From Gemmatimonadales bacterium (lineage in GTDB: Bacteria > Gemmatimonadota > Gemmatimonadetes > Gemmatimonadales > GWC2-71-9), in NCBI GenBank assembly GCA_019637315.1, contig JAHBVU010000001.1, positions 310,001 through 374,000 on the forward strand: a stretch of 64,000 bases of DNA. Direction: 5' to 3'. The notes beneath the pieces are model-generated. The model made no database searches. It was given only the letters and a program-made list of their open reading frames with translations, and was not told the origin of the DNA. Shown here piece after piece: positions 21,105 to 24,218 of this stretch; the stretch's first letter is position 1, and the number at the start of each line of letters is the position of its first letter. A program made the translations under genes and the position numbers.

Positions 21105-21998
21105 TCAGTCTCGCTGCCAATCCACCTTGGAGGTGACGGTCTGCTTTGACTTGTTGCGCAGGATCTCCAGCTTCATCACGTCGCCGGGCTCGTACGAGTG
21201 GAGGATGCGGAGCAAGCTCGACGGTCCGCGAGCCGGACGACCATCCACGCTCAGCACTACGTCCCCCCCCTTGAGGCCCATCGGGTTGTTGCGCGGCGTG
21301 TCGATGACGAGCACTCCTTCCGAGGTCCCGAAGTAGGCGCCGAGATCCGGATTGATCGGAGCCAGCTCGAGTTCGGCAAAGGGCCCGCCGATCCGGCGAA
21401 ACATCACATCGGGCGATCCGAGCGACATCACGCGACGCTGACTCGGATCCCCTGGTGGCTGCGGGATCCGGAAGCGCACTTCGCCGTCGTCGATGCCACG
21501 GAAGGTGAACATTCGGTCGTCCGACGCGATGACGTTGACCGTCTTGGTGTCCCCACCACGCCGGTACTCGATCGCTGCCGTATCACCCGGCTCGAGCTTG
21601 GCGGCCAACTCGACCATTCGAAGGCCGGGATACGATTCGTTGCCGGCGGCGCTCCGGTCGCGCTCGGTGCCGATCAGGCGCTGGCCGTTGAATCGGGTCA
21701 CGATGTCACCGGAACGCAGTCCGGCCTTGGCGGCGGGGCTGGCCGGCGTCACCGAAAGAATCGTGGCTCCGATCGAGTCCGCGGGCGTAGCCTCGACTTG
21801 GATGATGATGCCGAGGCGCGCACGCCGGTTAGAAAAAAAGTCGAGCGGGTCGACCTCGGTATCGTTGACCCAGACGCGCGAGCGAGGCTCACCCGCGCCT
21901 CGCCGCACTTCGATCCGCTCGACCGGCGGCTGTGCCCAAAGCGGAGTTGTGATGGTGCCGACAGCCAGAGTGGTCAGCAGTAACTGCTTAGTACGCAT
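21105..21998 (-). CDS. Exported protein with two PDZ domains
   Basis: A 297-residue secreted protein: signal peptide (LLLTTLAVGTITTPLWA), then two PDZ domains. The first is near residues 60-160 (ATILSVTPASPAAKAGLRSGDIVTRFNGQ is the binding groove and loop, given here as SPAAKAGLRSGDIVTRFNGQ). The second is near 220-290 (NNPMGLKGGDVVLSVDGRP). No protease domain is fused, unlike DegS or DegP. Downstream of an ECF sigma and its anti-sigma gene, it may bind unfolded outer-membrane protein tails and signal to the anti-sigma factor; this is inferred. ATG 21998 is preceded by AGGAG. Confidence 0.85.
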   Translation of the reverse strand: MRTKQLLLTTLAVGTITTPLWAQPPVERIEVRRGAGEPRSRVWVNDTEVDPLDFFSNRRARLGIIIQVEATPADSIGATILSVTPASPAAKAGLRSGDIVTRFNGQRLIGTERDRSAAGNESYPGLRMVELAAKLEPGDTAAIEYRRGGDTKTVNVIASDDRMFTFRGIDDGEVRFRIPQPPGDPSQRRVMSLGSPDVMFRRIGGPFAELELAPINPDLGAYFGTSEGVLVIDTPRNNPMGLKGGDVVLSVDGRPARGPSSLLRILHSYEPGDVMKLEILRNKSKQTVTSKVDWQRD

Positions 21999-22021
21999 GT
22001 GATCTATCACTCCTGTGGGCG

Positions 22022-22630
22022 CTAAAAGCCCACGTAACGGGCGCCGGACAGGTGAACATCGACCAGCGCATCGAGCAGTCCGACACGCTCACGCCACAGC
22101 CTGAGCATCTGCTCGCGCCGGGTTTGCTGGTCCATCAGATTGACCGCTTGGATCTGGCGGTCGAGGCGCGCGACCCGGTCTTCGAGCAGCGACGTCACCG
22201 CCACGGTGTGGCCATTGACGACCTGCCGGTCCTGATCGAAGCCCGACAGCGCCTGCTCGAGCTGCGAGGCGCGGCTCATCACCTCAGCCAGCTCCGGATC
22301 GGCGGCCACCAGGGTGCGCTCCTCTTTACGGAGCGAGAATCCCGTGATTGCAAGAACGACGGTTGCCGCGAGGGCCACACCACCCAGCGCAACCTGCCTG
22401 AGCCGAAGCCGCCGGCGTTCGCGGGCGGCTTCGAGTCGGACGGCGCCGAACAGGTCGCGGGAAGGACGCAGGGTCGGGAGCGCGCGGAGCCGAGCGCTCC
22501 GCTGATCCAGCCGAGCCAATTCGTCTCGGCAGGCGTCACAGTGATCGAGATGCTCGCGCCACGACATGACCTGAGGCTCGAGGCCGGGCTCACGAGTCGC
22601 CAACAGCTGTTCAACGTTCAAATGTGTCAT
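22022..22630 (-). CDS. Zinc-type (ZAS-like) transmembrane anti-sigma factor
   Basis: A 202-residue protein. Residues 1-60 form an anti-sigma domain with His27-x3-Cys31-x2-Cys34 (EHLDHCDACRDEL). One membrane helix lies at about residues 76-97 (VALGGVALAATVVLAITGF), and a periplasmic coiled-coil-like region (ASQLEQALSGFDQDRQ, LLEDRVARLDRQIQAV) follows. Such proteins bind and hold the cognate ECF sigma until released by proteolysis or redox change. ATG 22630 overlaps the sigma stop (ATGA). Confidence 0.88.
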   Translation of the reverse strand: MTHLNVEQLLATREPGLEPQVMSWREHLDHCDACRDELARLDQRSARLRALPTLRPSRDLFGAVRLEAARERRRLRLRQVALGGVALAATVVLAITGFSLRKEERTLVAADPELAEVMSRASQLEQALSGFDQDRQVVNGHTVAVTSLLEDRVARLDRQIQAVNLMDQQTRREQMLRLWRERVGLLDALVDVHLSGARYVGF

Positions 22631-23166
22631 ACGGGTACCGCTTCCTCGCCCAGCCATCGCCGAAGCCGGGCGTGGGCACGGGCCAGCTGTGATTTCGAAA
22701 AGCTGACCGTGCGGTCCATCATTTTGGCGATTTCTTCGTGGGTGTAGCCCTCGACGTCGTGGAGCCAGACCACGGCACGTGAGGTTTCGGGCAGGCGCTC
22801 CAGCGCAGCTTCCAGGTCCATCCGGAGCGCCGTGTCTTCTCGGCGCATCGGGGCGATCTCGTCGTTGAGCTCGTCGGTGTCGCGGTACTTGTTGCGACGG
22901 AGGCGCATCAGTGCTTTGCTGGACGCAATCGTCCGGATCCAGCCCCAGAGGCTTCCGTCGCCCCGATACTGCCGGATGCTGCGGAAGACCTCGAGGAAGG
23001 TTTCCTGGACCACGTCTTCGGCATCTTCGGTGGTGCGGCAGATTCGCCGGGCCAGGTTGTACACCGGAGACTCGAAGGCGCGGAACAGAGCTTCCTGCGC
23101 TTCCGGATCGCCGGCCCTGAGCCGGGGCAGTACCGCATCGGCATTGGCCAGCCGGAATGCGTCCAT
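22627..23166 (-). CDS. ECF-type RNA polymerase sigma factor
   Basis: A 179-residue sigma factor with region 2 (TTEDAEDVVQETFLEVFRSI, SLWGWIRTIASSKALMRLRR) and region 4 (LPETSRAVVWLHDVEGYTHEEIA, SFSKSQLARAHARLRRWL). It is first in the operon with its anti-sigma factor and a double-PDZ protein and is divergent from the rhomboid protease gene, with about 200 nt between them. The start at 23166 gives the usual N-terminus; in-frame codons upstream exist but would add a non-conserved extension. Confidence 0.93.
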   Translation of the reverse strand: MDAFRLANADAVLPRLRAGDPEAQEALFRAFESPVYNLARRICRTTEDAEDVVQETFLEVFRSIRQYRGDGSLWGWIRTIASSKALMRLRRNKYRDTDELNDEIAPMRREDTALRMDLEAALERLPETSRAVVWLHDVEGYTHEEIAKMMDRTVSFSKSQLARAHARLRRWLGEEAVPV

Positions 23167-23357
23167 TCGAAGGGTTCCTGTCAGCACACCATGGGTCCTG
23201 TGGGTCCGCCCTCCAAGATGCGTAATATGGACCTTTGGTTGCACCACCGCCTGTTCGGGGCTCGGTCAGACCCGATTCCTGCCCTGACCGCGACCGGTCT
23301 CGTTCAGTTTAAGTAACCACGCTGTAAGGGTTTACGACCATCGGCCGTGTTTGAGAT

Positions 23358-23363
23358 TAGATT
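23358..23363 (+). promoter_or_regulatory. -10-like TAGATT box before rhomboid gene
   Basis: TAGATT ends 3 nt before GTG 23367 and 9 nt before the in-frame GTG 23373. If it is a -10 element the second GTG is the likelier start, giving a near-leaderless mRNA. The ten bases TTAGATTGTC are shared with the sulfatase upstream region. Confidence 0.35.
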
Positions 23364-23366
23364 GTC

Positions 23367-24218
23367 GTGGTTGTGGACCGGCGCACGCGCTGGTCGGGCC
23401 GCCAGTTTCCCCGGATCAGGGTCGGTTTCGTGACTCCTTGGGTTCTTCGCATTGTGATCGCGTGTGTGGGCGTCTTCTTCCTGCAGACGACCATGCCAGC
23501 CGTTACCGGGCTGCTCGGCCTCCAGATGCATGGCTTGCTGTTCCGTCCCTGGACGCTGGTGACGTACATGTTCGTCCACGGCGGGTTGAGCCACATCTTC
23601 TGGAACCTGCTGATTCTCTATTTCTTCGGCCCGGCCCTCGAGTCGCGACTTGGCGGCACCCGTTTCCTGCGGCTCTTCCTGATCAGCGGCATCGTGGGCG
23701 GCCTGGGCTGGCTGATCTTCAGCGCCGTTCCCGGCGGAGGGTTTGGCCTCCTGATCGGCGCCTCAGGCGGCGTGTATGGCGTCCAGCTGGCCTTTGCGTA
23801 CTATTGGCCGAGACAGCGGATCTACATCTGGGGCATCCTGCCAATCGAGGCCCGCTGGCTCGTCATCATCATGACGGCGATGTCGCTCTACGCAGGGCTG
23901 GGCGGTGGCGGCGGCAACGTGGCCCATTTTGCCCATCTCGGCGGATTCCTGGGCGGCTACCTCTATCTCAAGTTCATGGAACGACGCCAGCAGGCACCGC
24001 TACGGGAGTGGCGTGAGGCCGCCCGGCCTGCGGTGCCGAAACTCGAATCGACTTCAGGCGCGATGGAGCGCTGGTCGCGGATTCGCCGCGAGGATCTGCA
24101 CGAGGTCAATCGGAGCGAGCTCGACCGCATTCTCGACAAGATCAGCGCATCAGGGATCAGCAGTCTGTCGCCGGCCGAGCGGGAGTTCTTGGATCGGTTC
24201 AGCGCCAGGTTGCACTAG
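23367..24218 (+). CDS. Rhomboid-family intramembrane serine protease
   Basis: A 283-residue membrane protein with about six helices. The catalytic Ser is in GASGGVYG, the catalytic His in HFAHLGGFLGGY, and the oxyanion Asn in HGGLSHIFWNLLIL, all at the positions expected for GlpG-type rhomboids. The last 80 residues are a soluble helical tail (RREDLHEVNRSELDRILDKI, LSPAEREFLDRFSARLH) that is common in rhomboids of this sort. Rhomboids cut single-pass membrane proteins; the adjacent divergent anti-sigma factor is a candidate substrate. Starts at GTG 23367 or 23373. Confidence 0.93.
   Translation: MVVDRRTRWSGRQFPRIRVGFVTPWVLRIVIACVGVFFLQTTMPAVTGLLGLQMHGLLFRPWTLVTYMFVHGGLSHIFWNLLILYFFGPALESRLGGTRFLRLFLISGIVGGLGWLIFSAVPGGGFGLLIGASGGVYGVQLAFAYYWPRQRIYIWGILPIEARWLVIIMTAMSLYAGLGGGGGNVAHFAHLGGFLGGYLYLKFMERRQQAPLREWREAARPAVPKLESTSGAMERWSRIRREDLHEVNRSELDRILDKISASGISSLSPAEREFLDRFSARLH

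Follow-up and report, generated by a model that had tools for sequence, protein, structure and literature searches.

The window, a 64,000-nucleotide stretch of a Gemmatimonadales genome, contains the four genes described in an earlier note on this DNA: three on the minus strand and one, encoding a rhomboid, divergent from them on the plus strand. An ECF sigma factor (22627..23187, minus), recognized by its Sigma70 r2 and r4 Pfam domains, likely starts at GTG 23187 or ATG 23166, as judged by comparison of upstream regions and start codons across 61 loci; the N-terminus read from GTG 23187, VLTGTLRMDAF, matches the MTRTLxM of relatives. It is followed by a single-pass ZAS anti-sigma factor of 202 amino acids (22022..22630, minus), for which comparison with relatives favors a start at ATG 22630 rather than at 22657, so that its start codon and the stop codon of the sigma gene overlap as ATGA. 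The third minus-strand gene encodes a periplasmic double-PDZ protein (21105..21998, minus; likely start ATG 21998, again by comparison with relatives). The rhomboid-family intramembrane serine protease (23367..24218, plus; Pfam PF01694, 5e-28) carries a C-terminal DUF6576 and the motifs GASGG, with the catalytic serine, and AHFAHLGG, with the histidine.

Searching 102 genomes of the family returned an anti-sigma match at E <= 0.01 in 95, some of these matches being weak or partial. Synteny was then compared in the window plus 60 further anti-sigma loci (n = 61, regions of up to ~12 kb each) and in 40 outgroup loci belonging to other Gemmatimonadota families. The sigma and anti-sigma genes are adjacent in all 61 family loci, and the PDZ gene comes next in 60, the contig ending in the remaining one. 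The trio is also present in most outgroup loci across Gemmatimonadota; the PDZ gene was not detected at one f9 locus that has the anti-sigma gene (L229), and two f2 relatives (L242, L243) have neither the PDZ gene nor the C-terminal tail discussed below. Each of the 61 family loci has HxxxCxxC in the N-terminal cytoplasmic domain of the anti-sigma factor and an adjacent ECF sigma gene, the features of class I ZAS proteins, and Gemmatimonadetes have been reported to be rich in ECF sigma factors with class I anti-sigma factors (PMC7406223). The sigma/anti-sigma/PDZ trio is the real unit at this locus, and only three of the four genes belong to it. As for the wider surroundings, the divergent neighbor of the trio is often a VIT1/CCC1-like protein whose N-terminal half is ferritin-like (gene cluster 2, seen in L036, L037 and a further 32 loci), and a leucyl-tRNA synthetase gene lies close to the trio in 41 loci, these names having been assigned by reading the sequences rather than by family search.

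The rhomboid had been assigned a central role in the earlier note, in which the adjacent protease cuts the anti-sigma factor and the PDZ protein merely detects damage. Its divergent adjacency in the window and its two intact catalytic motifs are in keeping with that role, as is a loose linkage in five further genomes from three genera, where the rhomboid lies ~1.4 to 4.2 kb from the trio on the same side and the opposite strand. Across relatives, however, the four genes do not travel together. A rhomboid of some kind was matched in 100 of the 102 family genomes. Only 6 of the 61 family loci, window included (four in the window's genus, two in other genera), have one no more than 6 kb from the trio, and none of the 40 outgroup loci does. 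Direct adjacency, and with it the intergenic region shared by sigma and rhomboid genes, exists in the window and in no other of the 61 loci. In the five other linked loci the rhomboid adjoins a small cupin-like gene or overlaps with it (approximately L036:11060-11490 and its equivalents in L037, L038, L050 and L052; cluster 20), which suggests a rhomboid-cupin operon in the relatives; this gene and the other intervening genes are missing from the window, so the common intergenic region is peculiar to the window genome. Elsewhere the orthologue is distant, being on another contig or at 78 kb (G095), 298 kb (G039), 0.8 Mb (G051) or 1.9 Mb (G052).

A phylogenetic tree separates the clade of the window's rhomboid from a second widespread paralogue. 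Judged by the strength of the matches, the window's clade is present in roughly 40 of the 102 genomes, and genera such as g14, g35, g3, g4 and g8 keep the trio while having the second paralogue only. Neither the window's rhomboid nor the related ones that were read are preceded by the promoter motif of the sigma factor (see below), apart from one degenerate match (L134). Known bacterial rhomboid substrates are few, and no anti-sigma factor is among those named (PMC12067869). Because linkage is rare, the sigma promoter is missing and the clade is absent from trio-keeping genera, release of the sigma factor by the rhomboid is left unsupported and we regard it as very improbable; nor does anything point to a role for the rhomboid in trans. 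Synteny, tree and promoter rule it out as a member of the module, and it was rejected as a sigma target since the motif is not upstream of it. It is most likely a chance neighbor of the trio, and the lesson is that the rhomboid reading relied on adjacency in a single genome and was misled by it.

Upstream of the sigma gene, GCRAC, a spacer of exactly 16 bases and GCATC or a close variant occur in 60 of the 61 loci, and the one remaining locus differs by one further base change. The consensus of the 61 loci is YGCRAC-N16-GCATCTWW, represented in the window by TGCAAC-N16-GCATCT (23217..23243, minus; the coordinates reach GCATC), and the strict form YGCRAC-N16-GCATC has its single match in the whole window at the sigma gene. 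Families f3 and f9 keep the motif, and more distant families have a looser version of it. Autoregulation from their own promoter is usual for ECF sigma factors. The fixed motif and spacing upstream of the sigma gene therefore mark a promoter that is probably the sigma factor's own, from which the trio would be transcribed under autoregulation. In many genera (L036-L095) no more than 12-15 bases separate the end of the -10 element from the sigma start codon, which would make the message almost leaderless.

Strict promoter sites elsewhere are few; leaving out the trio's own site, their number is about that found with a reversed control. One target recurs: in three genomes (L175, L179, L182) a strict site precedes the gene of a secreted beta-propeller-like protein, which is a possible regulon member on this evidence. 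With so few further sites the case for a regulon is weak, and so is the claim that the trio is an envelope-stress switch.

The double-PDZ protein has a Sec signal peptide and is thus exported. Pfam finds two PDZ_2 domains, both predicted with high confidence and matching the DegP/DegQ PDZ tandem in fold and sequence. The trypsin-like protease domain of HtrA/Deg proteins is absent from it, in agreement with its earlier description as protease-less. The loops are invariant in each domain but not alike. PDZ1 keeps the canonical loop RLG[VI], with the glycine conserved in 60 of 60 aligned sequences; PDZ2 has an invariant YFG stretch and, by our own reading of an alignment with DegP-like proteins, glutamate in place of the loop glycine. 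As it has the canonical loop, PDZ1 is the better candidate for binding a C-terminal tail, and its groove would most likely be the tail-binding one.

The anti-sigma factor has the motif HLDHCDAC and one transmembrane segment, bearing out its designation as a one-helix ZAS protein; the HxxxCxxC motif, the transmembrane segment and periplasmic helices are found in all 61 family loci. An arginine-rich stretch precedes the membrane segment and indicates an N-in/C-out orientation, as in RseA and other S2P substrates. The periplasmic part had been described as a coiled coil; an AF2 model predicts a three-helix bundle followed by a short disordered tail. A fold search with the anti-sigma factor returned no significant match.

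The tail itself (..YVGF-COOH with the stop codon, 22022..22036, minus) is conserved to the last residue. In the alignment of the 61 family loci every anti-sigma factor ends in the same column, with leucine (41) or phenylalanine (16) as the last residue (F/L in 57 of 61), preceded by glycine (57/61), valine (53/61) and tyrosine or asparagine (53/61), which gives the pattern [Y/N]VG[L/F] right at the stop codon. Between loci, identity over the last four residues is 0.63 vs 0.45 for the whole protein; tail identity of the partner proteins is low (sigma 0.25, PDZ 0.10), and among seven neighboring gene clusters compared, only cluster 10 is slightly similar (0.66 for the tail vs 0.62). Outgroup tails differ and are recognizable within groups: AGL in f3, WR in f9, W[F/Y] or similar in f4 and f5, and GTRTW, VEY or YR in f7. 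Aromatic or hydrophobic endings are thus retained in the outgroup as well, the tails there including ..DNWF, ..DWY, ..VEY, ..GTRTW, ..WR and ..AGL. The f9 tails, ending in arginine, are no classical PDZ ligands.

PDZ domains bind free carboxy-termini. A tail that is conserved, predicted to be disordered and ends in a free carboxy-terminus has the form of a PDZ ligand, and in the window's family the two sides of such a contact, a hydrophobic free C-terminus and a canonical carboxylate-binding loop, are both present. In the sigma E and AlgU pathways, the known ligands recognized by HtrA PDZ domains are likewise C-terminal tails, YYF and WVF (PMC8545111). We therefore infer from the sequence pattern that the anti-sigma C-terminus is probably a PDZ ligand, held by the adjoining double-PDZ protein.

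A natural gene fusion in one metagenome-assembled genome (G170; locus L240, C2, 5482-6321) bears on this pairing. Here a single reading frame joins the anti-sigma factor to a PDZ domain. The sigma factor of this locus shares 72% identity with its counterpart in a relative (L279), the N-terminal half of the fusion, including the transmembrane segment, is an orthologous anti-sigma part (43% identity over 181 residues), and its PDZ domain is 46% identical to the second PDZ domain of the relative's partner protein. A separate PDZ gene was not detected at the locus, and missing from the fusion are the periplasmic end of the anti-sigma factor with its tail, and PDZ1. If the tail and PDZ1 serve to join two proteins, a covalent link would make exactly that pair dispensable; the fusion thus lends support to a tail-PDZ1 pairing, as a lead and not as proof.

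The gene set, its order and overlap, the promoter, the conservation of tail and loop, the fusion and the presence of RseP in the genome (TIGR00054, 274 bits vs a cut-off of 147.6) are direct observations, from which we infer the binding, its direction (cap rather than adaptor), the ligand and the proteases. In the model that best accommodates them, the anti-sigma factor would keep the sigma factor at the membrane at rest, while its free tail (YVGF here), extending past the periplasmic helical bundle, would sit in the PDZ groove of the partner, which would cap the anti-sigma factor as RseB caps RseA. The aromatic or hydrophobic C-terminal tails of misfolded or unassembled outer-membrane proteins would compete for the groove, and the uncapped anti-sigma factor could be cut by a periplasmic site-1 protease of HtrA or Prc type, the genome having five Trypsin_2 matches, and then by RseP, releasing the sigma factor. 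We put the probability of this reading at roughly 0.55. More tentative, and in our estimate short of even odds, is its extension to a phylum-wide switch in which the anti-sigma tail imitates an outer-membrane-protein tail, a protease-less PDZ protein acts as the gate, and sensing is by competition between the real tail and the imitation.

The main rival has the opposite sign. The PDZ protein could be an activating adaptor, one PDZ domain sensing misfolded proteins and the tail contact delivering the anti-sigma factor to HtrA, Prc or RseP; in a cell that lost the PDZ protein, the sigma factor would then be locked off. The same trio, tail and fusion fit this arrangement, and the two PDZ domains, their loops being different, could each have a partner of its own. 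A protease conserved beside the trio was not found, however, and the separate periplasmic partners RseB of E. coli and MucB of Pseudomonas protect (PMC8545111); we consider an adaptor unlikely. The conserved tail could instead serve a contact with a protease, a chaperone or an oligomer. It might, for instance, be a structural or proteolytic signal, such as a recognition end for Prc or HtrA, that works independently of the PDZ protein, the latter being an output of the operon and a chaperone of outer-membrane proteins. Prc and HtrA do have PDZ domains themselves, and the Trypsin_2 matches would supply candidates. Against this stand the near-constant pairing of the anti-sigma factor with the PDZ gene, the fusion's lack of both tail and PDZ1, and C-terminal conservation limited to the anti-sigma factor, unlike the sigma factor and the PDZ protein; an independent tail is accordingly, in our judgment, a less probable account again than an adaptor.

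The earlier interpretation thus survives in its PDZ half, through the phylum-wide trio, the PDZ-ligand-like tail and the fusion, but not in its rhomboid half. If capping by the PDZ protein is true, regulated intramembrane proteolysis would here have its PDZ sensor and its protease on separate proteins, and the little-studied phylum Gemmatimonadota would gain a predicted envelope-stress pathway that can be checked by simple peptide binding. ZAS anti-sigma factors, ECF sigma factors and HtrA PDZ domains are already known. In the literature searched, mostly papers open without subscription, we found no description of the trio or of a rhomboid acting on an anti-sigma factor, and the element that appears new is a protease-less PDZ partner dedicated to an anti-sigma factor with a PDZ-ligand-like tail.

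Three known systems invite comparison. The trio resembles the RseA/RseB/DegS/RseP system that controls sigma E in E. coli in its ECF sigma factor, its N-in/C-out single-pass anti-sigma factor with a cytoplasmic sigma-binding domain, its co-encoded periplasmic partner, its HtrA-type PDZ domains and the RseP in the genome. In contrast to E. coli, the partner is a double-PDZ protein and not RseB, which has a lipid-binding fold (neither Pfam nor NCBIfam gave an RseB-family match), PDZ and protease are separate, and the PDZ ligand is apparently the anti-sigma factor's own C-terminus. With the MucA/MucB/AlgW/MucE system of Pseudomonas, which controls AlgU, it shares an aromatic C-terminal tail (..WVF in MucE) read by a PDZ domain of the pathway (PMC8545111); there, however, the tail is on MucE or outer-membrane proteins and the PDZ domain on the protease AlgW, whereas here the tail is on the anti-sigma factor and the PDZ protein is protease-less. 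Finally, both PDZ domains correspond in fold and sequence to the tandem of the HtrA proteins DegP and DegQ, yet the protein lacks their trypsin domain and is instead a dedicated operon partner of an anti-sigma factor.
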